Shown here one piece after another: positions 43,748 through 61,304 of a stretch of 64,000 bases of DNA (the first letter of the stretch is position 1; each line of letters begins with the position of its first letter). The stretch covers positions 62,001 through 126,000 of the forward strand of contig NZ_CP019070.1 of NCBI RefSeq assembly GCF_001956695.1. Reading direction: 5' to 3'. Under the pieces are notes generated by a model that saw only the letters and a list, made by a program, of their open reading frames with translations, searched no databases and was not told the origin of the DNA. The translations under genes were made by a program, and so were the position numbers. Source of the DNA: Poseidonibacter parvus. Its GTDB lineage: Bacteria > Campylobacterota > Campylobacteria > Campylobacterales > Arcobacteraceae.

Positions 43748-43824
43748 GCGTCTGTGGCTCAACTGGATAGAGCACTGGGTTTCGGCCCCGGCGGTTGGGG
43801 GTTCGAATCCCTCCAGGCGTACCA
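43748..43824 (+). tRNA. tRNA-Arg (TCG anticodon)
   Basis: A 77-nt cloverleaf can be folded by hand: acceptor GCGTCTG/CAGGCGT, D-arm GCTC/GAGC, anticodon stem CTGGG/CCCGG with loop TTTCGGC (anticodon TCG), T-arm GGGGG/CCCTC with TTCGAAT, and encoded CCA. It decodes CGA and related codons. Its 3' 45 nt are the attachment site of the mobile element, so this part is supplied by the element. Confidence 0.96.
43779..43824 (+). repeat. Left attachment site (attL core), 46-bp direct repeat
   Basis: The 46 bp from GTTTCGGCCCCGGCGG to the tRNA CCA recur exactly at 59355-59400. They run from the anticodon stem to the tRNA 3' end, the classic target of tyrosine integrases. The 54 bp after each copy also match with five differences. 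Confidence 0.93.
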
Positions 43825-44037: not shown

Positions 44038-44658
44038 TTATGCTGCTAATTTCCTTTGTAAAATCTTAAAAAATATCTCATTTGGAGTTTTATAGCCAAG
44101 AACTTTTCTAGGTCTATTGTTTAGACGATTTTGTATATTTACAATTTCAGTTCTTGATTCCTTCTCCACAACTTTAGGTCTTTTATCTATAGAAATTCTA
44201 TTCTTAATAATACCTCTAGTATTGTAATCATTACTTCTTTTGTGATACTTTTTATTTTTATGTCTTAGCTTAAAATATAATCTTCCTCCACAACTTTTGT
44301 TATGGTAAATGTATTGATATATAGTTTCATAAGATACTGTATATGAAAGCTTTTGTTTTTTCATAACACCTGATATCTGTTCTGGAGACCAATCTAATTT
44401 TAGTTTCTCTTGAATATAAATTTTAACCTTTTTGGTGAGTTTTACAAATTTGTTTTTCTTATTGTGTCTAGTAAAGGTTAATTGCTCAGAAACTTCAGCT
44501 TGATATTTATTATATTTACTATCTCTGCTAATCTCTCTACTTATTGTTGATTGAGATTTATCTAATATTTTTGCTATGTCATTTTGGGTATATCCAACTT
44601 TAATATAAGCAGATATTTGATATCGTTCTTTTAGGGGTAACTGCGTGAATTTTTTCAT
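44038..44658 (-). pseudogene. IS30-family transposase lacking its catalytic core
   Basis: 206 residues where full-length IS30 transposases have about 310-320. The N-terminus is an intact HTH (LPLKERYQISAYIKVGYTQNDIAKILDKSQSTISREI) and the C-terminus has NRLNNRPRKVLGYKTPNEIFF. The join VEKESR-TEIVNIQ removes the whole region that normally carries GDWE.DT, TDNGKEF and the ENxNG glutamate, all three DDE residues. The deletion is in frame. TAGAAGT occurs in inverted orientation at 44014-44020 and 44724-44730, perhaps remains of the insertion sequence ends. Such a protein could still bind its ends but not transpose. Confidence 0.85.
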
Positions 44659-45005: not shown

Positions 45006-45034
45006 TTGACACTTTGTATTATATATGATATAAT
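45006..45034 (+). promoter_or_regulatory. Perfect consensus sigma-70 promoter
   Basis: TTGACA at 45006-45011, a 17-bp spacer, and TATAAT at 45029-45034. Campylobacterota promoters rarely have any recognisable -35 box, so an exact match to both hexamers with ideal spacing marks a very strong, possibly imported promoter. Transcription should begin near 45041. Confidence 0.85.
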
Positions 45035-45040
45035 TTTTGT

Positions 45041-45239
45041 CTAATTTGAAGATAACCTCTAAAACAAAGGATATTTCATAAAGAACACATTCGTGTTTTT
45101 GTTGAATTATCTCTCTGGTAGTTCATGTTAGTTCCGTTCTGTGAGTTTTTTGCCGAGAACTCAAAATGGAATATTCAAGTTTAGCTAGAAACAAACAAGA
45201 ATACTGTGTAACCCAAGTCTAGTGCTTGGGTTTTTTTTT
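45041..45239 (+). ncRNA. Structured small RNA of about 200 nt, unknown family
   Basis: The stretch between the perfect promoter and the terminator at 45210-45239 has no convincing ORF but clear helices: AGATAA/TTATCT (45050-45055 with 45107-45112) enclosing AAGAACAC/GTGTTTTT with an ATTC loop, and TTCCGTT/AATGGAA (45132-45138 with 45165-45171) enclosing GAGTT/AACTC. Size resembles 6S RNA, but the end-to-end pairing and central bubble of 6S are not seen. A segment at 45184-45199 is complementary to the start region of the ORF at 45413. Confidence 0.6.
45210..45239 (+). terminator. Rho-independent terminator of the small RNA
   Basis: Perfect stem AACCCAAG (45210-45217) / CTTGGGTT (45225-45232), 7-nt loop, then an uninterrupted T-run to 45239. 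Confidence 0.92.
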
Positions 45240-45245
45240 GCCTAA

Positions 45246-45364
45246 AAATATGTGTTTTTAGAGTTGTGGATACACCCATACCCATTCCGAACATGGCCGT
45301 TAAGCACTTCATCGCTGATAATACTGCATCTTTCAGGTGTGGAAATGTAGGACAGTGCATATTT
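45246..45364 (+). ncRNA. 5S rRNA-like RNA
   Basis: 119 nt, the length of a true 5S. From GTGGATACACCC through CCCATTCCGAAC, GTTAAGCAC, TTCATCGCTGATAATACTGCATC to TTTCAGGTGTGGAAATGTAGGAC it follows bacterial 5S. Helices still pair: helix I AAATATG (45246-45252) with CATATTT (45358-45364), extendable by wobbles; helix III CCAT (45276-45279) with ATGG (45293-45296) plus AC with GT; helix IV CTGCATC (45324-45330) with GGTGTGG (45336-45342). Loop C is 13 nt as in E. coli. Changed positions include CC for the usual bulged AA (45297-45298). It lies after a terminator and 36 bp before a ribosome site, not in an rRNA operon. Confidence 0.8.
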
Positions 45365-45412
45365 GCACAGTTGCTCTCTTTTGAGTGACTTATCTTACAA
45401 AGGAGGTGAGCC

Positions 45413-45520
45413 TTGTTTACAAGTTTTCTAGCAGTGAACTTTAATGTTCCTTATATTATTATCGCAGCATGCTATGCAGTGATATTTACAGTCTATTTAT
45501 ATATGGCTGTAACACATTAA
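45413..45520 (+). CDS. Predicted 35-residue hydrophobic peptide with very strong ribosome site
   Basis: AAAGGAGGTGA (45399-45409) is close to full complementarity with the 16S 3' end and is set 6 nt before a TTG at 45413. The frame encodes MFTSFLAVNF, then a hydrophobic span (VPYIIIAACYAVIFTVYLYM) ending AVTH; stop 45518-45520. One membrane helix of this size is typical of type I toxins and small membrane regulators. CTTG/CAAG at 45412-45423 could hide the start codon in a small hairpin. A perfect palindrome CACATTAATTAATGTG (45513-45528) overlaps the stop. Product name unknown. Confidence 0.62.
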   Translation: MFTSFLAVNFNVPYIIIAACYAVIFTVYLYMAVTH

Positions 45521-45559
45521 TTAATGTGAAAAATAAAACGTAACGGCAATTACAGTTTT

Positions 45560-45589
45560 CCCTAGTCCTCGGTTTGACTAGGGTTTTAT
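45560..45589 (+). terminator. Rho-independent terminator ending the RNA/peptide locus
   Basis: CCCTAGTC (45560-45567) pairs with GACTAGGG (45576-45583), followed by TTTT. A second hairpin just before it (AAAACGTAA with TTACAGTTTT, 45535-45559) may assist. Confidence 0.85.
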
Positions 45590-45813
45590 ATTAAACTACT
45601 CCGTAAAGATTCTAAATCATGAAAGATTTAATCCCTTCACATTCAGCACATATATCTACATAATAAAGTATGATTTTATCGTCTATAAAAACTTAGAATT
45701 TATAATGATTGAATTAAAAGCATCGTAAGTTGAGCTATAAAGCTATCGTAGATTGAGAACATATTTAAGTTTAAACTACTTGTAATAGGAATCCTACCAA
45801 GAGAATTTATATA

Positions 45814-50089: not shown

Positions 50090-50698
50090 ATGAAGCTCTA
50101 TGAAAAGGTATTTTATTTCATATCTGGTCACGGTAGGGGATGGGCATTCTCATCAAGTGATTTGATAAAGAAATTTGATAGACAACAAATAGATAGTACT
50201 TTATCTGATTTATCAAAAAATAAAAGAATCAGAAGAATAGCTAGAGGTATTTATGACTATCCTAAATATAGTGATTTCTTGCAAAAAGAGTTAAGCCCAG
50301 ATATTTATCAAGTAGCTCGTGCATATGCTAGAAAATTTAATTGGAGAATAGAAGTTTCTGGAGATAGTGCTTTAAATCTTTTAGATCTTTCAACACAAAT
50401 ACAAGCAAAATATATTTATCTTTCAGATGGACCAAATAAAAGGTATAAAATACTAGAGAACATAACTCTAGAATTTAAAAAGTCAGCTTTAAAAGACATT
50501 GGTTTTAAATATAAAGAGAGTTCTTTAATTGTTCAATCATTAAAAGCTTTAGGCAAAGATCATATAACTTCTAAAACGATTCATAAAATCAAAGAGCAAA
50601 TTGATTATAAAATGTATGATAAAATTTTAAAAGATACACAAAGTACGACACTATGGGTATATGAAATCATAAAGCAAATTTGTGAAAAAAACAAATAG
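50090..50698 (+). CDS. AbiEi/DUF6088-type antitoxin and transcription regulator
   Basis: 202 residues: a winged-helix N-terminus (FSSSDLIKKFDRQQIDSTLSDLSKNKRIRRIARGIYDYP) and a C-terminal domain with YARKFNWRIEVSGDSALNLLDLS and YLSDGPNKRY. This is the antitoxin of AbiE-type (type IV) systems, normally paired with an AbiEii nucleotidyltransferase toxin directly downstream. Here only a 13-codon stump follows (50709-50750), so it is an orphan that may control the methyltransferase-helicase pair behind it. Confidence 0.78.
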   Translation: MKLYEKVFYFISGHGRGWAFSSSDLIKKFDRQQIDSTLSDLSKNKRIRRIARGIYDYPKYSDFLQKELSPDIYQVARAYARKFNWRIEVSGDSALNLLDLSTQIQAKYIYLSDGPNKRYKILENITLEFKKSALKDIGFKYKESSLIVQSLKALGKDHITSKTIHKIKEQIDYKMYDKILKDTQSTTLWVYEIIKQICEKNK

Positions 50699-50708
50699 AG
50701 GAATAATA

Positions 50709-50750
50709 ATGATAGAATCAAAAACATTATCTTTGGATGATAGAACATGA
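50709..50750 (+). pseudogene. Stump of an AbiEii-type toxin gene
   Basis: Thirteen codons (MIESKTLSLDDRT) behind GAGGAATAAT, then TGA overlapping the ATG of the methyltransferase. LSLDDR resembles the LPxxDRxxLF opening of AbiEii nucleotidyltransferases. It looks like the toxin was cut off and replaced by the next gene pair; a true short leader peptide is the alternative. Confidence 0.45.
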
Positions 50751-51352
50751 AGAATACAATCAATTATTATGAAAAAAATGCAAATTCTCTAATTTCTCGA
50801 TATGAATCAGCTGATATAAGTGACTTACAAGATTTTTTAATAAACACTTTTACAAAAAAATCACAATTACTTGAAATTGGTTGTGGTTCAGGACGTGATG
50901 CTATGTTTATGACGAAACATAACTATAATATTATAGGAATTGATGGCTCATCAAATATGATAGAGGAAGCAAAAAATATTCATCCTGAATTATTGGGGAA
51001 ACTATTTCAAAAAATTTTACCAAATGATTTACAATTTGATAGAGAATTTGATGGAATTTATTCAATTGCTACATTAATGCATTTAACAAAAACTGATATA
51101 AAAAAAACCATCCTAAAAATATATAATTTATTAAATCAAAATGGAAAATTTTTAATGTCTATTTCTTTATTTAGAGATGATATTGATAAGAATGGGTTTG
51201 ATGAAAAAGGAAGGTTCTTTTTAGTATTGAATTTTGAAGAGTGGATTAAAATTTGTGAAGATTCAGGATTCAAAATCATTGAAACAAAAAGAAATAAAGA
51301 TGGACTCAATAGAAATGGCATTGAGTGGCTTACTTTAGTAGCTCAGAAATAA
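50747..51352 (+). CDS. Class I SAM-dependent methyltransferase
   Basis: 201 residues: SAM-binding LLEIGCGSGRDAMFM (about 40-54), IIGIDGSSNMIEEA, then FDGIYSIATLMHLTKTDI. It lacks a target-recognition domain and the NPPY/DPPY motif, so it is not a standard DNA methylase; TehB-like or small-molecule methylation is likelier. It ends 1 nt before the helicase gene, so the two form a tight pair. Confidence 0.8.
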   Translation: MKNTINYYEKNANSLISRYESADISDLQDFLINTFTKKSQLLEIGCGSGRDAMFMTKHNYNIIGIDGSSNMIEEAKNIHPELLGKLFQKILPNDLQFDREFDGIYSIATLMHLTKTDIKKTILKIYNLLNQNGKFLMSISLFRDDIDKNGFDEKGRFFLVLNFEEWIKICEDSGFKIIETKRNKDGLNRNGIEWLTLVAQK

Positions 51353-51353
51353 T

Positions 51354-53960
51354 ATGAATATAGAAATTATTAAAACAAATGTTATAGATTTTTTAAAACC
51401 TACGTTTAAATTTGAAAAAGAGCTACTGAGAGGTTTTTTATTAATTAACTCAAATAATAATGCAATTATGATTGATTATCAAATCTGTGATAAGTCAAAT
51501 GCTTTTAAATACAATGAGTATACAAAAGAGCAGAACTCTTTAATGTTTAAATATGATTCATGTTATAGATTTTTGATAGATGATGAAAAAGATTTTGAAG
51601 AGTTCAAAGTTATTTATTCACATATTCAAAACAATGATTTTAACGAAGATAAAATAAAACAAAGTGGAGTAAATAGAGAATTAAAAGAAATTGATCCAAC
51701 ACTGCCAGAGGCTTATTTTGAGTCAGCTTTTATTGAATGTTATGGTAGAGAGTCTTTGTCAAAAATAAGAAGAGAGTTTCCTATTATTGATTTTGATGGT
51801 CAGACAAGATGGGTTGACTATCTAATACAACATAAAGATTATAATATTGCAATAGAAAAAAATGGTGAAACTTATCATCATCCAATAATTACTGGAAAAA
51901 CTAAATATAAATCTCAACTACATAAACAAAATTCTTTAGTAGCTTATGGATTTAAAGTTTTTCGTTGGTCATTAGAGGGAATGAAAACAACTGATAATTT
52001 TTACGATGAAGTAAAAAAATATATCGGTGATCTTGAAGATTTACTAGATTTACAAAAGCTTTCAATTTCAAGAGAAATTACACTTTTAAGTCATCAAATT
52101 GATTCACTTAAAGAACTTGAACAAAGAAGAGAAAACGGAGAAAAAAACTTTTTAGTTGTTCTTCCAACAGGTACGGGTAAAACTGAAATTTTAATTGCTG
52201 ATTTGATAGAACAGTATAAAAAAGACAAATATTTAAAAGTTTTGATTTTAGTTCCCACAAAACAGTTAAAAATAGACACTATAAAGAAAGTAAATTATAG
52301 ATTTGAAAATGAATTACATGTAAAAGTATTAATTGGTGAAGAGAAAAACTCCCAAATCTTAATACAAACATATTCTTGGATGAGTAGATATTATCAAAAA
52401 TTCAACAGTTTAGATTTTGACTATATTGCAGTTGATGAAGCTCATCATGCCGTTGCACCAACTTTACAAAAAGTTATTCAATATTTTAATCCTCAAATGC
52501 TTTTAGGTTTAACAGCAACAGATAAGCGACTTGATGAAAAAAGTTTGGCTGAAATATTTGGAAAATATGAATCAAACCTAACATTGGTTGAAGCAATTAA
52601 ACAAGATATTCTAGCTCCAATAAAAGCTTTTAGAGTTAAAAGTAATATTGACTTATCAGAAGTTAGATTTAATGGAAAAGACTATTCTTCAACTGATTTA
52701 CAAAAAACAGTAATTACACCATCAAGAGACCAACTTATTGTTGATGTGCTAAAAAAGTATTTTGTTGATAAAACTATGCCTTTTAAATCAGGATTGATTT
52801 TTTGTGTTTCAGTTGCACATGCCAAAAAAGTAGCAAAACTTCTACAAGACAATGAAATATCATGTAAAGCCGTAAGTGGAAATGATAATAATTCACAAAA
52901 GTATATTGAAGAATATCAAAATGGAGAAATCCAATTTTTAACAACTTGTTCATTACTTAATGAAGGATGGGATTCTCCAAGAACTTCAATTATAGTTATG
53001 GCAAGACCCACTATGTCTAAAGTCTTATATGCACAACAGTTAGGACGAGGCACAAGAAAACATAAAGGAAAAGAAGCACTTTATGTAATTGATGTTGTTG
53101 ATAACTATGGAGGGGTAGGAACATTTAAAAATACTCCTTGGTCTATTCATTCATTACTAGGAATATCTGAATACAAACCTTGGGCAAATATGTTAAATCC
53201 AAATAAATTATCCTATGAAGAAATTTTACTTGAGGGACTTTATGAAGAAGAGAGAAAACTTGAATATATAGATATTTTTACTTTTGAGGAGAAATATGCT
53301 GATTACCTTAGTGATGAACAACTAGCAAGAGAACTTTTTATCTCAACAGGAACATTACGTTCTTGGGTAAAGAAAAATGAAGTTACTCCAGATGTTCAAA
53401 TTTCTATAGGTAAACAATTTCTAAACTATTATCACCCTTCTAAAATTGAAGAGATAAGGAAAAATAAAAAGTTAAAGGTTCATAATGATGAAACCATATA
53501 TGAAGATTTTTTTGAGTTTATCAATGAAGGAACTTATTCTCTTTCTTATAAAATGATTTTTATTTTATCATTTCTACAAACTATTGACCATAATGGAGAA
53601 TCAACTTTAGATGATTTAGTTATGGAATTTAAGAAATTTTACCAATATAGAATAGATAAAAACTTGAAAATGGATAGAAGTAAAAGTCCTTTTGAAAAGC
53701 AAGACTTTATAGATAATAACTCAAAAGTTAAACAAAATATTTTGGCAAATCCATTTGAAAAATTTGAGAGAAAAAGATTTATGTATCATTGTAAAGATTT
53801 GAATAACATTGCATTTTCAAATGTTTTATGGAACAAAATTAATAATAAAAATGATATCCAAAAAATAAAAAAGAAATTTTTTGATGATTTAATTAAATAT
53901 TATGAGGAATATGGGAACTTTGATATTGATTATTGGAAAAGTAATTGGACTATAATTTAG
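51354..53960 (+). CDS. Nuclease-helicase fusion (PD-(D/E)XK-like plus SF2 helicase)
   Basis: 868 residues. Residues about 110-215 resemble a DUF559/Vsr-like nuclease (FPIIDFDGQTRWVDYLI, YNIAIEKNGETYHHP, KQNSLVAYGFKVFRWS; candidate D, E and K/N triad). The SF2 core has LPTGTGKTEILIA (about 267), VDEAHH, GLTATDKR and ARPTMSKVLYAQQLGRGTRK. A C-terminal HTH-like stretch (LSDEQLARELFISTGTLRSWVKKNEV) follows. The type is common in defence islands. With the methyltransferase it looks like a two-gene modification/restriction-type unit of undefined class. Confidence 0.82.
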   Translation: MNIEIIKTNVIDFLKPTFKFEKELLRGFLLINSNNNAIMIDYQICDKSNAFKYNEYTKEQNSLMFKYDSCYRFLIDDEKDFEEFKVIYSHIQNNDFNEDKIKQSGVNRELKEIDPTLPEAYFESAFIECYGRESLSKIRREFPIIDFDGQTRWVDYLIQHKDYNIAIEKNGETYHHPIITGKTKYKSQLHKQNSLVAYGFKVFRWSLEGMKTTDNFYDEVKKYIGDLEDLLDLQKLSISREITLLSHQIDSLKELEQRRENGEKNFLVVLPTGTGKTEILIADLIEQYKKDKYLKVLILVPTKQLKIDTIKKVNYRFENELHVKVLIGEEKNSQILIQTYSWMSRYYQKFNSLDFDYIAVDEAHHAVAPTLQKVIQYFNPQMLLGLTATDKRLDEKSLAEIFGKYESNLTLVEAIKQDILAPIKAFRVKSNIDLSEVRFNGKDYSSTDLQKTVITPSRDQLIVDVLKKYFVDKTMPFKSGLIFCVSVAHAKKVAKLLQDNEISCKAVSGNDNNSQKYIEEYQNGEIQFLTTCSLLNEGWDSPRTSIIVMARPTMSKVLYAQQLGRGTRKHKGKEALYVIDVVDNYGGVGTFKNTPWSIHSLLGISEYKPWANMLNPNKLSYEEILLEGLYEEERKLEYIDIFTFEEKYADYLSDEQLARELFISTGTLRSWVKKNEVTPDVQISIGKQFLNYYHPSKIEEIRKNKKLKVHNDETIYEDFFEFINEGTYSLSYKMIFILSFLQTIDHNGESTLDDLVMEFKKFYQYRIDKNLKMDRSKSPFEKQDFIDNNSKVKQNILANPFEKFERKRFMYHCKDLNNIAFSNVLWNKINNKNDIQKIKKKFFDDLIKYYEEYGNFDIDYWKSNWTII

Positions 53961-54105: not shown

Positions 54106-55104
54106 CTACTTAATCCTCAATCTTTTCATCCTATCTTTATAAGATTCTTTATAAAACTCTTTTGCTTTAGGACTTAAAAAAGATTTATCAATCAAATCTT
54201 TTACCTCTAAATATGAATCTTCAATAAATTTTATAATTTTATTAAATCTTATTTCAGGTAAATCTATATACTTAGCAAAAGTTTTAAAATCATCATAAGT
54301 ATAGTAACCATATGCTTCATATGTTTCTGTATAATCATCTAATAAATCTATTGCCATATCTCCATATTTTTCATTTATATGAAATCTTGTGTTTAATAAA
54401 TCATAACTTGGTGTTAAAAAGTATTCATTAGAATCTGCTTTACTATACAAAGAAAAGTTTTTAAGATGAGCATCGCCATTACATATTAGATAATTTAAAA
54501 TAATTCTTTTGAAAAAATCTTCTTGTGATACTATACTAGTTGCTACATGCTGTTTTATCATCTTTGCACAATCTAAATAACTACAAGCATCATATTTATA
54601 ATTTTCTCCATGAGTTACTGGTGTTATTCCCATAATTCCTGCAAAATCTTCTTGATCATATTTCAAGTTTGTTTCTTCATCATAATCAAATCTTTTTGTT
54701 ATATAAGCTAACTCTCCATCACTAAACCTAATCAAACCACATGAAGCTGTAGGAATTTTAAATATACTCTTTGAAATAAGCATTGATAAATGTTCATTTG
54801 CCACAATATCTTTTTCATTTTGAATATGTCCATCCCCATTAGTAATAGGTTTTAATATATATTTACCATTACTTGCCGTTGGTATTAAATCTTTTTTTTC
54901 AAAAGTTAAGGAGATTTTATCTTGTACTCCAGAGATTGACATTCTAGGAGATAGTTCTGCTCTTTTTTTAGTAAATTCAATTCTGTCAAAATTTAAAGGA
55001 TTTGGTACATTCCCATTAAATAGTTCTTTAATACATTTTGAACAATAGTTATTCCGTAATTTCTTATTTGCTGCTAAGCAGCCTAAACATATCTTATCTT
55101 CCAT
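54106..55104 (-). CDS. hipT: HipT-like serine/threonine kinase toxin
   Basis: 332 residues, the length of HipT rather than full HipA (about 440). It opens with a zinc-finger-like CLGC...CSKC (Cys 6, 9, 21, 24). The Gly-rich loop carries SIS at 56-58 in MSISGVQDK, the pair of autophosphorylated serines in the E. coli O127 HipT. Catalytic loop GDAHLKNFSLY and metal loop SYDLL are intact, so the kinase should be active. HipT is known to phosphorylate tryptophanyl-tRNA synthetase; the target here is unknown. Confidence 0.85.
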   Translation of the reverse strand: MEDKICLGCLAANKKLRNNYCSKCIKELFNGNVPNPLNFDRIEFTKKRAELSPRMSISGVQDKISLTFEKKDLIPTASNGKYILKPITNGDGHIQNEKDIVANEHLSMLISKSIFKIPTASCGLIRFSDGELAYITKRFDYDEETNLKYDQEDFAGIMGITPVTHGENYKYDACSYLDCAKMIKQHVATSIVSQEDFFKRIILNYLICNGDAHLKNFSLYSKADSNEYFLTPSYDLLNTRFHINEKYGDMAIDLLDDYTETYEAYGYYTYDDFKTFAKYIDLPEIRFNKIIKFIEDSYLEVKDLIDKSFLSPKAKEFYKESYKDRMKRLRIK

Positions 55105-55106
55105 TT

Positions 55107-55433
55107 TTATATCTCATCTTTTTCTATTGTAATAGAACCTATTGTGTTCTCTTTTGTTGTTAATAGTAATCTTGAAAAATCATCATTTTTATCAATTCTA
55201 AGTTCTTTGCATTGAATATCTTTTAATTTACCTTCTGCTAATAAATTATAAAAAAAAGGAAATAAATTCTTTGAGGTAAACTCCTCTTCTTGTAATGGAA
55301 ATGTAAGACTAATAGCTTTTGAATTATCTTTACTTAAATACTCTTTGTTATAAACAAAACTATAGCTATTTTCATCAAGTTTTGTAAGTAAACCAGTAAA
55401 TATACTATTTCTAAAAACTTTTGCTCTTTGCAT
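55107..55433 (-). CDS. hipS: HipS-like antitoxin (HipA N-subdomain-1 protein)
   Basis: 108 residues equal to the N-terminal subdomain that is fused in HipA: VFRNSIFTGLLTK at the start and FFYNLLAEGKL in the middle. In HipBST this small protein, not HipB, is the direct antitoxin. It shares one base with hipB and lies 2 bp before hipT. Confidence 0.82.
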   Translation of the reverse strand: MQRAKVFRNSIFTGLLTKLDENSYSFVYNKEYLSKDNSKAISLTFPLQEEEFTSKNLFPFFYNLLAEGKLKDIQCKELRIDKNDDFSRLLLTTKENTIGSITIEKDEI

Positions 55434-55645
55434 TATTTAATCTTCACTTTGATATCCAATTCCATTCCTAATACATCTAAAAGTTTTTCTAGTGTTTTAA
55501 TTGTAGGATTTGCTTTTCCATTTTCAATCTCAGATATTGAAACATAATTAACACCCGAATAATCTTGTAAATCTTTTAATTCAAGATTTAATTCTTTTCT
55601 TCTTTTTTTAATAGTCTTACCTATTTTAGTAGAGGTAGCTTCCAT
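55433..55645 (-). CDS. hipB: HipB-like XRE-family DNA-binding protein
   Basis: 70 residues; XRE helix-turn-helix (IGKTIKKRRKELNLELKDLQDYSGVNYVSISEIENGKANPTIKTLEKLLDVLG). First gene of the leftward operon; likely autorepressor acting on the palindromes upstream. Confidence 0.88.
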   Translation of the reverse strand: MEATSTKIGKTIKKRRKELNLELKDLQDYSGVNYVSISEIENGKANPTIKTLEKLLDVLGMELDIKVKIK

Positions 55646-56406: not shown

Positions 56407-57807
56407 TTGATTAATGATAAAGAACTTAATGAACTATTTGAGAAGAAAAAAGAGTATTTTAATAATAAAACAAAAGATGAGATAAAAGATTGTATTACTA
56501 AGGATTCTGAATATAATGTGGTAACTTTAAAACTTGAACTTAAAGACTTTGGTTTTTTTAAAGAAGCTAAAAATGTAGAAAAACTGATGATTTATTTTGG
56601 AGTATACGATAATGATACAAATGAATATTTAGATTATTCAACTTATTCAAATGTTGATATTAATGCTGATATCATATTGTCAAGAAGATCTGTCATAGTT
56701 AAAAAAATCAATAAATATTTAAATTTTGATGCTAACTTATCCTTTAAAATATTTATTGTCCCTATTATTCAAGAAAATGAAGACTTGATCTTTTCTTTAG
56801 AACAAAAACTATATTTACCAGATATAACAAGTACTAATAATGAGAACTTTTTGGGTAGTTCAAAGAAACTTCTTACATTTCTATATAGTAAAATATTGCC
56901 AATATTTATATTTATTTTAATTCCTGCCAATGTATATATTTATTTAATAAAAAAAATAGGTTTAGTTGAATCCTTAATTGATATTTCGACAATAACTACA
57001 ACGGTAATATATTTATTAAATGAGACAATAAATATACTTTTTGATAATTTACTTTCATTTTTTATTGGAGGAATATTATTTATTCCAGTTTATTTATTAA
57101 TTATATTTTTTTTCACAGTTTATGGCTTTTACATTTTTAGCAAAGTCTTTAGAGTTATAAAAAAGTTAGTCTTATGTAATACAAAAAATGAATATCATGA
57201 GATACTTTATGAAAAAATTACAATAAAAAGGCTCCATTTCGATTTAGTACCTATGATTAAATCTTTTTTCTCAACTAAATATATATATTTATACTCATTA
57301 ACTTATTCATTGCTAGTATTGTTTTTATTTATGGTCTTTTTTATTACTCAAATAGCTGATACAAATAAAAATAGTATAAATAGTATAAATAAAATAAATA
57401 CTGTAATATCGATTGCTGCGAATGAGTATATTCAATATTCTGCCTTTCCTAAGCTAGCTAATATAAAATTAAAAAATGAATCTTCTAAAAAAGAATTTGT
57501 ATTATTTATGGGCTATGATAAAACATACAGTTACTATTACGATATAAGTTATATTAATAATGTTTTATCAAAGTATTCAAGTAATGAAATACAAAAGTTT
57601 ATGGAAGATTATAAAAAACACAATAATCATCAAAAAATTGAAATTTCTTTTCAAGATATATTTAAAACTTTTCTAGCTGGACATATAGATAATAATAATA
57701 TAAAAGCAATAAAAAATGATATGTATGAGTTTTATGATATAGGTAAATTTAGTATGGGTGGAGATATTTTTTCTAAATTAAAAGATGGAGAACTTAGTAT
57801 CAAATAA
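56407..57807 (+). CDS. Membrane protein of unknown function
   Basis: 466 residues from a TTG at 56407 behind AAGGA. A soluble N-terminal part of about 155 residues precedes four likely membrane segments (about 160-182, 188-210, 215-245 and 295-318). A soluble C-terminal part includes INTVISIAANEYIQYSAFP and FVLFMGYDKTYSYYY. No family recognised. It sits between the HipBST module and the integrase and is probable accessory cargo. Confidence 0.65.
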   Translation: MINDKELNELFEKKKEYFNNKTKDEIKDCITKDSEYNVVTLKLELKDFGFFKEAKNVEKLMIYFGVYDNDTNEYLDYSTYSNVDINADIILSRRSVIVKKINKYLNFDANLSFKIFIVPIIQENEDLIFSLEQKLYLPDITSTNNENFLGSSKKLLTFLYSKILPIFIFILIPANVYIYLIKKIGLVESLIDISTITTTVIYLLNETINILFDNLLSFFIGGILFIPVYLLIIFFFTVYGFYIFSKVFRVIKKLVLCNTKNEYHEILYEKITIKRLHFDLVPMIKSFFSTKYIYLYSLTYSLLVLFLFMVFFITQIADTNKNSINSINKINTVISIAANEYIQYSAFPKLANIKLKNESSKKEFVLFMGYDKTYSYYYDISYINNVLSKYSSNEIQKFMEDYKKHNNHQKIEISFQDIFKTFLAGHIDNNNIKAIKNDMYEFYDIGKFSMGGDIFSKLKDGELSIK

Positions 57808-58077: not shown

Positions 58078-59205
58078 TTAGAACTTTAAATTGAGAATAG
58101 CATCCTTCCCACTTTCAGGAGATAATTTAGCATATCTCATAGTCATATTAATATCACTGTGATTCATCAATTTTTGAATAGTAAAAATTGGTGTACCATT
58201 AATTGCTAAATGAGAAGCAAAGGTATGTCTTAAAGTATGAACTACTGCTCTATTTTTTCTATCATCTTGATCTATTCCTTTATTAAATAAATCATTTATA
58301 ACTATTCTCATTTGTTTCTGAATAGTGCTTGGATCCTTGTTAAATATTTTATCGTTTAATTCATGGTTGACAGTCCAATCTTTTAATAGACTAGATAATT
58401 CGTCAGTTAAAAAAGCTGTATAAGATACTCTTGCATCTTGATCTTTTTTTAGATCATATAGTGTAATTAAATTATTACTAAAATCAATATCTTTTTTTGA
58501 TATAAAAAGTATTGAGGCTAATCTTGCTCCAGTAGTTAAAGCAATCTTTGAAAAAAGAAAAAGTTTTTTATCATCTTTTAGATAGTTATATAGAGTTTTT
58601 ATCTCTTCTTCTTTTAGATATCTATCTCTTTGATTTCTAACTGAATCCATTTCAATATATTTTCTATAATCATTTTTTAATAATTCTTCGTTTAATGCAA
58701 AATTAGTTATAGATTTTAGAATTGTAAGTATGTTATGTATGGTTTTAGTTGATAAAGGTTCACCTCTTGGGTTTTCCTTTTCTTTTAAGTTTTTTTGTAA
58801 TCTTCTAATATCTTCTTTAGAGACAAATTCAAGGTTTAGATCTTTAAAAAAAGGTTCCAAATGTTTTTTAAATGATGCTAGATCACTTTGTTTACTTCTG
58901 CCTTCTTTCCTATTCTCAAAATATTTTTCTTTTATATCATCTAATAAAACTTTTGTGCTTCTCTTATTTTTTGCAAGATTAGGAAGTTCTTCTCCTAATC
59001 TTTGTTTCGTAATAATTTCATTTCTATATCTATTACAATAATGAGTATCTATTCCTTCTGATTGTTTTCCTATTTTTTGTTCAATATCTTTATTGTTTAA
59101 ATCTTTATATCTGATATAATATGTTTTATCAATCCTATTTTTAGTTTTTGTTTCTCTATAGAATACTCCAGAATATCGAGTGTTTATCCTTTTCATTTTT
59201 CCCAC
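58078..59205 (-). CDS. int: Tyrosine recombinase (site-specific integrase)
   Basis: 375 residues: N-terminal arm-binding part (about 1-75), SAM-like core-binding domain (about 85-180) and catalytic domain with TTGARLASILF (Arg about 230), HTLRHTFASHLA, LMNHSDINMTMRYAKL (nucleophile Tyr). Its start lies 149 bp from the right attachment repeat, as expected for an element integrated in a tRNA gene. Confidence 0.93.
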   Translation of the reverse strand: MGKMKRINTRYSGVFYRETKTKNRIDKTYYIRYKDLNNKDIEQKIGKQSEGIDTHYCNRYRNEIITKQRLGEELPNLAKNKRSTKVLLDDIKEKYFENRKEGRSKQSDLASFKKHLEPFFKDLNLEFVSKEDIRRLQKNLKEKENPRGEPLSTKTIHNILTILKSITNFALNEELLKNDYRKYIEMDSVRNQRDRYLKEEEIKTLYNYLKDDKKLFLFSKIALTTGARLASILFISKKDIDFSNNLITLYDLKKDQDARVSYTAFLTDELSSLLKDWTVNHELNDKIFNKDPSTIQKQMRIVINDLFNKGIDQDDRKNRAVVHTLRHTFASHLAINGTPIFTIQKLMNHSDINMTMRYAKLSPESGKDAILNLKF

Positions 59206-59354: not shown

Positions 59355-59400
59355 GTTTCGGCCCCGGCGGTTGGGGGTTCGAATCCCTCCAGGCGTACCA
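59355..59400 (+). repeat. Right attachment site (attR core)
   Basis: Exact 46-bp copy of 43779-43824, from the tRNA-Arg anticodon stem to CCA, but without the 5' half of a tRNA gene. Confidence 0.93.
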
Positions 59401-59764: not shown

Positions 59765-60763
59765 CTATTTAATCCTCAATCTTTTCATTCTATCTTTATA
59801 AGATTCCTTATAAAACTCTTTTGCTTCAGAGCTTAAAAAAGATTTATCAATCAAATCTTCTACTTCTAAATATGAGCCTTCAATAAATTTCATAATTTTA
59901 TTAAATCTAATTTTAGGTAAATCTATATACTTAGCAAAAGTTTTAAAATCATCATAAGTATAGTAACCATAAGCTTCATAAGTAGAAGTATAATCATCTA
60001 ATAAATCTATAGCCATATCTCCATATTTTTCATTTATATGAAATCTTGTGTTTAATAAATCATAACTTGGTGTTAAAAAGTATTCTCTAGAATCTACTTT
60101 ACTATATAAAGAGAAATTTTTAATATGAGCATCACCATTACATATTAGATAATTTAGAATAATTCTTTTAAAAAAGTCTTCTTGTGATACTACACTTGAT
60201 GCTACATATTTTTTTATCATCTTTGCACAATCTAAATAACTACAAGCATCATACTTATAGTTTTCTCCATGAGTTACTGGTGTTATTCCCATAATTCCAG
60301 CAAAATCTTCTTGATCATATTTCAAGTTTGTTTCTTCATCATAATCAAATCTCTTTGTTATGTAAGCTAACTCTCCATCACTAAATCTAATCAAACCACA
60401 CCAAGCTGTAGGAATTTTAAATATATTCTTTGAGATAAGCATTGATAGATGTTCATTTGCCACAATATCTTTTTCATTTTGAATATGTCCATCTCCATTT
60501 GTAATAGGTTTTAATATATATCTTCCATTAGCTGCAGTTGGTATTAAATCTTTCTTTTCAAAAGCTAAGGAGATTTTATCTTGTACTCCAGAGATTGACA
60601 TTCTAGGTGATAATTCTGCTCTTTTTTTAGTAAATTCAACTCTATCAAAATTTAAAGGATTTGGTACCTTTCCATTAAATAGTTCTTTAATACACTTTGA
60701 ACAATAGTTATTTCTTAGTTTTTTATTTTCTGCTAAACAGCCTAAACATATCTTATCTTCCAT
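59765..60763 (-). CDS. hipT: HipT-like kinase toxin, second copy
   Basis: 332 residues, 22 differences from the inner copy by my count (about 93% identical), with the zinc-finger-like cysteines, SIS loop (56-58) and catalytic GDAHIKN intact. Changes are scattered, several in the C-terminal lobe, with S-to-W in the hinge region IPTAWCGL. No sign of decay. Confidence 0.85.
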   Translation of the reverse strand: MEDKICLGCLAENKKLRNNYCSKCIKELFNGKVPNPLNFDRVEFTKKRAELSPRMSISGVQDKISLAFEKKDLIPTAANGRYILKPITNGDGHIQNEKDIVANEHLSMLISKNIFKIPTAWCGLIRFSDGELAYITKRFDYDEETNLKYDQEDFAGIMGITPVTHGENYKYDACSYLDCAKMIKKYVASSVVSQEDFFKRIILNYLICNGDAHIKNFSLYSKVDSREYFLTPSYDLLNTRFHINEKYGDMAIDLLDDYTSTYEAYGYYTYDDFKTFAKYIDLPKIRFNKIMKFIEGSYLEVEDLIDKSFLSSEAKEFYKESYKDRMKRLRIK

Positions 60764-60765
60764 CT

Positions 60766-61092
60766 TTATATCTCATCTTTTTCTATTGTAATAGAACCTA
60801 TTGTGTTCTCTTTGGTTGTTAATAATAACCTTGAAAAATCATCATTTTTATCAATTCTAAGCTCTTTACATTGTATATCTTTTAGTTTACCCTCTGCTAA
60901 TAGATTATAAAAAAAAGGAAATAAGTTTTTTGATGTAAATTCTTCTTCTTGTAAGGGGAATGTTAAACTAATAGCTTTTCCAATATCTTTATTTAAATAC
61001 TCTTTATCATAAACAAAGCTATAGCTATTTTCTTCAAACTTTGTAAGTAAACCAGTAAATATACTATTTCTAAAAACTTTTGCTCTTTGCAT
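60766..61092 (-). CDS. hipS: HipS-like antitoxin, second copy
   Basis: 108 residues, six differences from the inner copy, all between residues 19 and 38; residues 39-108 are identical. The clustering could reflect a specificity patch that keeps the two modules from cross-neutralising, or just a local conversion boundary. Confidence 0.82.
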   Translation of the reverse strand: MQRAKVFRNSIFTGLLTKFEENSYSFVYDKEYLNKDIGKAISLTFPLQEEEFTSKNLFPFFYNLLAEGKLKDIQCKELRIDKNDDFSRLLLTTKENTIGSITIEKDEI

Positions 61093-61304
61093 TATTTAAT
61101 CTTCACTTTGATATCTAATTCCATTCCTAGTACATCTAAAAGTTTTTCAAGTGTCTTAACCGTAGGATTTGCTTTTCCATTTTCAATCTCAGATATTGAA
61201 ACATAATTAACACCCGAATAATCTTGTAAATCTTTTAATTCAAGATTTAATTCTTTTCTTCTTATTTTTATAGTTTTACCTATTTTAGTAGAAGTAGATT
61301 CCAT
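61092..61304 (-). CDS. hipB: HipB-like XRE-family protein, second copy
   Basis: 70 residues with three differences from the inner copy (A3S, K14I, I49V); the recognition helix is unchanged, so both HipB proteins should bind the same operators. Heads the second leftward hip operon. Confidence 0.88.
   Translation of the reverse strand: MESTSTKIGKTIKIRRKELNLELKDLQDYSGVNYVSISEIENGKANPTVKTLEKLLDVLGMELDIKVKIK

Follow-up and report, generated by a model that had tools for sequence, protein, structure and literature searches.

Type I toxin-antitoxin systems are defined by two components, a small hydrophobic peptide and an RNA pairing with the mRNA of this peptide (PMC3919570). The tisB/istR-1 and zorO/orzO pairs of E. 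coli combine a small hydrophobic peptide, a structured 5' leader and a nearby antisense small RNA that pairs with the toxin mRNA (PMC3919570, PMC7708055), and translation of tisB needs a standby site approximately 100 nt upstream of the sequestered ribosome-binding site (PMC7708055). In the epsilonproteobacteria, the Helicobacter aapA/IsoA system comprises a peptide of about 30 aa and the antisense RNA IsoA, encoded on the opposite strand and overlapping the ORF, and a long-distance pairing of the aapA mRNA hides its Shine-Dalgarno sequence (PMC6733600).

Structures resembling rRNA have also been described in mRNA leaders. Those preceding the L20 and S15 genes control ribosomal protein genes by mimicking a local binding site, and leaders of this kind are established sensors of ribosomal proteins (PMC7247131). 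In addition, displaced 5S genes, stand-alone or remnant, occur in Peptococcaceae and Pseudoalteromonadaceae, some of them after terminators and some on plasmids. Most of them are without terminal parts or contain large insertions, and they have been judged likely pseudogenes (PMC7812874).

Here we describe a locus in a 64,000-nt stretch of Poseidonibacter parvus DNA, referred to below as the window. In our preferred interpretation, which we consider reasonably probable, a 5S rRNA-like RNA at this locus is a co-opted rRNA and provides the leader domain in a small, mobile module resembling type I toxin-antitoxin systems.

Genomic context and anatomy of the module

The host of the module is an integrative, mobilizable element of 15.6 kb, situated at tRNA-Arg (Table 1). 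The element carries an integrase, a relaxase, a NikA-like protein, an AbiEi-like protein, a methyltransferase, a helicase and a hipBST-like operon. A preliminary description of this DNA had placed the 5S-like RNA inside a mobile element, and the perfect 46-bp repeats, the integrase, the relaxase and the NikA-like protein agree with this setting. The module is arranged in the order promoter, RNA1, terminator 1, 5S-like domain, Shine-Dalgarno sequence, 35-aa ORF and terminator 2. No separate promoter was found for an mRNA comprising the 5S-like domain and the ORF.

Table 1. Coordinates of the module and of its host element in the window.
Feature	Position	Strand	Basis or remark
Left attachment repeat, tRNA-Arg 3' half, 46 bp	43779..43824	.	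identical 46 bp at 59355-59400
Promoter TTGACA-17-TATAAT, extended -10 TG	45006..45034	+	12/12 consensus positions
RNA1, ~200-nt structured RNA ending in terminator 1, putative antisense (antitoxin-like)	45041..45239	+	fold vs shuffles
Antisense element 2 in RNA1, complementary to ORF start region 45412-45450	45168..45199	+	helix chaining; also paired in whole-transcript fold
Antisense element 1 ACTGTGTAA, predicted pairing with 45363-45371 TTGCACAGT just 3' of the 5S-like domain	45203..45211	+	helix chaining, flank test
Terminator 1: 9-pair hairpin, T9, then GC	45210..45239	+	ends 6 nt before 5S-like helix I
5S rRNA-like domain	45246..45364	+	RF00001 match, covariance model, paired changes
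Shine-Dalgarno AAAGGAGG	45399..45406	+	6 nt before start codon
35-aa hydrophobic ORF, TTG start, MFTSFLAVNFNVPYIIIAACYAVIFTVYLYMAVTH, putative membrane toxin	45413..45520	+	sequence, coding pattern, peptide profile
Terminator 2: 8-pair hairpin and T-rich tail	45560..45583	+	sequence
Tyrosine integrase of element	58078..59205	-	adjoins right attachment repeat 59355-59400

A number of other features were recorded in this region. An IS30-family transposase of 206 aa, probably truncated, is found at 44038-44658, directly left of the module and near the left attachment site. The AbiEi-like protein (DUF6088), the methyltransferase and a ResIII/DEAD helicase lie in a row at 50090-53960 as possible defence genes, while a 466-aa protein adjoining the integrase (56407-57807) had no Pfam or PADLOC match. 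Two hipBST-like operons, in which HTH, HipA N-terminal and HipA C-terminal proteins are encoded as separate genes, are located at 54106-55645 within the element and at 59765-61304 just past the right attachment repeat, and one stretch is approximately 91% identical between them.

Occurrence of the module

A DNA search of 104 genomes of the family revealed three further loci with similarity outside rrn operons, designated G036, G010 and G025. The four copies belong to four species of three genera, and the substitutions between them include paired ones. All three further loci possess terminator 1 with T9GC, the 5S-like domain, a Shine-Dalgarno sequence, an ORF of 33, 34 or 36 residues and terminator 2, the hairpin of terminator 1 with its T9GC thus being kept in 4/4 loci. 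Promoter-like sequences are also present upstream of RNA1 in G036 and G010, and the upstream sequence of the G025 copy is interrupted by the contig end. A promoter for the 5S-like domain inside terminator 1 was considered as well. The sequence TGCTTAAAAT follows the T-run in G036, but no such box occurs in G025, and the candidate was rejected.

A covariance model of the terminator and the 5S-like domain retrieved 4 of the 104 family genomes at 158-191 bits, every rrn 5S scoring at most 139. The peptide profile matched the same four genomes, with an E of ~3e-16 or below, and gave no other convincing match in the family; since it was built from these same peptides, this result shows only that no further member is near. 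Weak peptide matches in other genomes (~18 bits) were taken as chance, and one that was examined had no module around it. Among 399 sampled genomes of the order, only the window genome and G036 were matched by the 5S model and by the peptide profile, and these two were also the only matches of a strict pattern in 397 genomes of the class. Phage records yielded no match to the 5S-like region. Viral and genome contigs were also scanned with a loose pattern; of the loci hit, the 40 viral ones and five of the genome ones were compared with the 5S model, which matched none of these, and a tighter 5S pattern found nothing in viral contigs. Within the reach of these searches, the module is rare and occurs in one family only. 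Within the 104 family genomes, its type of 5S was never found without a preceding terminator 1 and a following ORF.

Plasmid matches to the 5S-like region in Aliarcobacter cibarius and Sulfurovum mangrovi proved to be ordinary rrn operons, with rrn sequence just upstream, and were rejected. In the A. cibarius plasmid record NZ_CP043858.1 (L008:3499-5100), rrn operon sequence approximately 94% identical to that of the window genome is followed by a normal 5S.

A mobile or toxin-antitoxin context was found at all four loci. Besides the integrative element of the window, the G036 copy is inside a prophage with a terminase, a DnaB-like helicase, a CI-like repressor and an integrase, the G010 copy is located approximately 10 kb from an integrase, and downstream of the G025 copy there is a hipBST-like operon (L263:722-2279). 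Proteins of 473, 728 and 165 aa encoded near the G010 module (L262:3708-7808) had no Pfam or PADLOC matches.

The 5S rRNA-like domain

In a whole-window search, the domain gave a full-length match to RF00001 (model positions 1-120) at 45248-45363 (+), with 64.5 bits against a gathering score of 38 and an E of 2.8e-11, in line with its initial recognition as a 5S-like RNA. The host genome, a single 2.87-Mb contig, contains six other 5S genes, which score 82.5-82.9 bits on the same model and have near-identical operon sequence in front of them. With 76% identity to these rrn 5S genes, the island copy is divergent, as had been claimed. The preliminary description had further stated that it stands alone. 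This holds as regards 16S and 23S genes, neither of which was found near it, but the domain is embedded in a conserved module of RNA and small ORF. In a 5S tree, the four module copies cluster beside the rrn 5S of other genera and apart from the 5S of their own genomes, a grouping which, at modest support (54-92) from short sequences, suggests a single origin of the module 5S copies and their horizontal spread.

As read initially, helix I is formed by AAATATG (45246-45252) and CATATTT (45358-45364), and helix III by CCAT/ATGG. The four copies are mutually 77-85% identical. Helix III is fully paired in all of them, with three of its four pairs doubly changed (CCAT/ATGG, CTAG/CTAG, CTTG/CAAG and CCAG/CTGG), and five doubly changed pairs are found in helix I. 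Helix II of the window copy contains two U-U mismatches at positions that are paired in the other three copies, and in the IV/V arm the pair adjoining loop A is open in two copies. The earlier portrayal of the RNA as base-paired is thus correct for helices I and III, which are intact and covarying, but not for helix II of the window copy. The four copies agree at many positions of helix II and show hardly any variation in loop C or on either side of loop E, and helix I and the helix IV hairpin have changed.

Across the four copies, 93.1% of the pair cells are paired in a sequence alignment that was not fitted to structure. Both sides have changed in at least one copy at 14 of the 41 pairs tested, whereas shuffles gave 6.1 and slid controls no more than 3; the 41 pairs include 11 of terminator 1, which hold 4 of the 14 double changes. 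Neither the paired-cell nor the double-change value was reached in any of 500 shuffles. The folding energy of the isolated domain is no better than that of shuffles (z 0.24), so the structural case rests on covariation and not on energy. With 14 doubly changed pairs among only four copies, the conclusion that the 5S-like structure is kept by selection, already proposed in the preliminary description, is strongly supported.

RNA1 and the small ORF

RNA1 folds 4.35 sd better than shuffles in the window (z -4.35), with z of -6.12 in G036 and -8.12 in G010. Its 5' hairpin is kept with paired changes, and a comparison with Rfam at E 5 assigned it to no known family. When the 30 nt preceding terminator 1 were paired in silico with the 30 nt following the 5S-like domain, duplex energies of -13.0, -20.1, -23.6 and -18.0 kcal/mol were predicted in the true pairs, compared with -3.8 to -15.6 kcal/mol when loci were mixed, the true assignment being the best of 24. 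The sum of -74.7 is 6.4 sd beyond the shuffles (-40.7 +/- 5.3) and was reached in 0 of 1000, while the window flank pair by itself is not significant (178/1000 shuffles).

The start region of the ORF is likewise predicted to be complementary to RNA1, with cognate z of 2.8, 1.4, 3.7 and 1.9 for helix-chain scores at the four loci. Antisense element 2 of the window reached a chain score of 59.2 against the ORF start, with 3 of 400 shuffles as good. In G025 there is near-continuous complementarity over the Shine-Dalgarno sequence and the start codon (z -5.3), as judged by whole-duplex energy, a measure that allows large loops and discriminates poorly. A lenient gapped alignment of the RNA1-mRNA pair of the window gave no signal (z 0.3); the stricter helix chaining and the flank-only test were adopted after weaker measures, and the pairing result is partly measure-dependent. 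Cofolding of RNA1 with the mRNA predicted a gain of 9.5-25 kcal/mol. Predicted occlusion of the Shine-Dalgarno sequence by RNA1 was clear only in G025 (unpaired 0.24 to 0.15) and modest elsewhere, and the post-5S mRNA of G025 was predicted to go from 0.48 to 0.14 unpaired with RNA1. On these predictions, RNA1 is complementary to the ORF mRNA, locus by locus, in the four loci.

The ORFs of the four loci encode 33-36 aa with a peak 19-residue hydropathy of 1.7-2.4, and each has a Shine-Dalgarno sequence in front. The window peptide has one hydrophobic stretch. Identity to it is 51-58% for the three closer peptides and only 18% for that of G025, which was assigned by position and size. Differences between the ORFs of the three closer peptides number 22, 17 and 23 at third codon positions versus 9, 4 and 8 at second positions. 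Judged by codon pattern, the ORFs evolve as coding sequence, and the ORF is a gene. No family in Pfam, NCBIfam or PHROGs matched the peptide, and its putative toxicity is deduced from size, hydrophobicity and layout.

Proposed mechanism and alternative interpretations

Computation establishes the anatomy of the module, its recurrence, the covariation of the 5S-like domain, the locus-specific complementarity, coding selection on the ORF and the mobile context, and the scheme built on these is inference. The likeliest scheme is one in which termination would provide an antisense RNA and read-through the mRNA of the peptide. The strong promoter would direct synthesis of RNA1, mostly stopping at terminator 1 and accumulating as an abundant antisense RNA. 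Read-through of terminator 1, which we infer to be partial, would produce a longer mRNA containing RNA1, the 5S-like domain and the coding sequence of the 33-36-aa hydrophobic peptide. Translation would be silenced when the 3' part of RNA1 pairs with the post-5S stretch and the peptide start region, either inside the read-through mRNA itself (in cis) or after release as a terminated RNA (in trans), RNA1 thus being a putative repressor. The folded 5S-like domain would hold both flanks together through helix I and then the flanking helix. As helix I sets the two flanks side by side, the simplest role of the domain would be that of a scaffold zipping antisense to target. Binding of 5S-binding proteins, processing or loss of RNA1 may disturb this arrangement, upon which the peptide would be made and act on the membrane, and the element might be stabilised or phage infection aborted. 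Several points count against this interpretation: only four copies are known, one of them with its upstream sequence cut short; RNA1 lies upstream on the strand of the ORF, unlike in the type I loci compared, and no promoter of its own was found for the mRNA with the 5S-like domain and the ORF; the peptide matched no family; predicted occlusion of the Shine-Dalgarno sequence is clear only in G025; and the flanking helix of the window is not significant by itself.

The preliminary description had offered three roles for the 5S-like RNA, namely a decoy for L5, L18 or L25, a replacement 5S and a leader that senses ribosomal proteins. A leader fits best, because each of the four loci has the domain between a terminator and a small hydrophobic ORF, as part of the 5' leader of this ORF, with a structured putative antisense RNA also upstream wherever that sequence is complete. 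A leader that senses ribosomal proteins is an alternative that we entertain tentatively. The domain would bind free L5, L18 or L25, altering translation or decay of the mRNA, and the peptide would be made when ribosome assembly is disturbed. This amounts to a stronger form of the preferred interpretation, with RNA1 secondary, and the two overlap. The conserved loops C and E suggest that L5, L18 or L25 may bind the domain and tune the switch. The identity of many positions in loop C, helix II and loop E next to the changes in helix I and the helix IV hairpin, the constant location of the domain in a leader, and the precedent of rRNA-mimicking leaders as ribosomal protein sensors (PMC7247131) are all consistent with sensing. 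However, the ORF is no ribosomal protein gene, helix II of the window copy has two U-U mismatches, and the compensated changes fit a pure scaffold equally well. A far-reaching version, in which a mobile element would have turned a whole 5S rRNA into a domain reporting ribosome assembly, through free L5, L18 or L25, to a putative membrane toxin, with a switch gated by the 5S ribonucleoprotein, seems doubtful to us.

Purely cis-acting pairing is in our opinion unlikely. RNA1, terminator 1 and the 5S-like domain would then form one long structured attenuator of the peptide gene without a trans-acting RNA, and the peptide, instead of being a toxin, might have a role in exclusion or regulation at the membrane. 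The location of RNA1 and the ORF on one strand behind one strong promoter, as well as the fold of the whole transcript (45040-45590), which is 7.9 sd better than shuffles, are compatible with such an attenuator, but terminator 1 with its conserved T9 should free RNA1, which is strongly structured by itself.

We regard it as improbable that the RNA is excised, matured and either enters ribosomes or titrates 5S-binding proteins, the ORF being a bystander. The domain is indeed a full-length 5S with conserved loops, and the flanking helix might serve as a processing stem of the RNase III type. Neither a free decoy nor a replacement 5S is as likely as a leader, however, given the six intact rrn 5S genes of the same genome, the partly broken helix II of the window copy with its two mismatches, and the constant association of this 5S type with terminator 1 and the ORF; moreover, the terminator directly upstream would keep its level low. 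Finally, a decaying rRNA fragment carried by the element is hardly credible, for although 76% identity to the chromosomal 5S, the helix II mismatches and the weak isolated stability (z 0.24) might point that way, the compensated changes in helices I and III at four loci and the fixed module in four species of three genera contradict it, as the preliminary description had anticipated.

If the preferred interpretation of a toxin-antitoxin-like module is right, mobile DNA would have recruited a ribosomal RNA to control a toxin-like gene, and stand-alone rRNA matches in islands, which are easily dismissed as pseudogenes, could be functional parts. It would also add a type I-like layout with the antisense RNA and the peptide mRNA on one strand, apparently under one promoter. 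A direct and cheap test is opened thereby, namely whether cells or phages can trigger the toxin by disturbing 5S ribonucleoprotein assembly.

Comparison with known systems

As far as sequence can tell, the parts of the module match the type I toxin-antitoxin definition, a hydrophobic peptide with its own ribosome-binding site being accompanied by an RNA complementary to its mRNA. With regard to a separate transcript, a promoter and a terminator for RNA1 are present, and RNA1 may act in cis only. The literature searched yielded no account of a module of this kind. We therefore file it, pending a toxicity test, as a type I-like module with a 5S leader domain that has no precedent in that literature.

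The small hydrophobic peptide, the structured 5' leader and the nearby RNA predicted to pair with the peptide mRNA resemble tisB/istR-1 and zorO/orzO (PMC3919570, PMC7708055), and the long structured leader together with pairing away from the Shine-Dalgarno sequence recalls tisB in particular (PMC7708055). Unlike in these pairs, the putative antisense RNA of the module lies upstream on the same strand, with a terminator as the sole separation, and a 5S domain forms part of the leader. The module also shares with aapA/IsoA a peptide of similar size, a putative antisense RNA and a predicted long-distance pairing in the mRNA (PMC6733600), the peptides being compared by description; that of the window matches no curated family. 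IsoA differs in its position on the opposite strand overlapping the ORF, and a 5S-like domain is not described for aapA/IsoA (PMC6733600).

By its sequence, the domain resembles the L20 and S15 leaders in being an rRNA-like structure within an mRNA leader (PMC7247131). Those leaders control ribosomal protein genes and mimic a local binding site (PMC7247131), whereas in the window the next ORF encodes a 35-aa hydrophobic peptide, and the module, located on mobile DNA, has an entire 5S rRNA in front of a toxin-like peptide. In contrast to the displaced 5S genes of Peptococcaceae and Pseudoalteromonadaceae, the structure of the module 5S is kept by compensated changes and is tied to an ORF and a putative antisense RNA.
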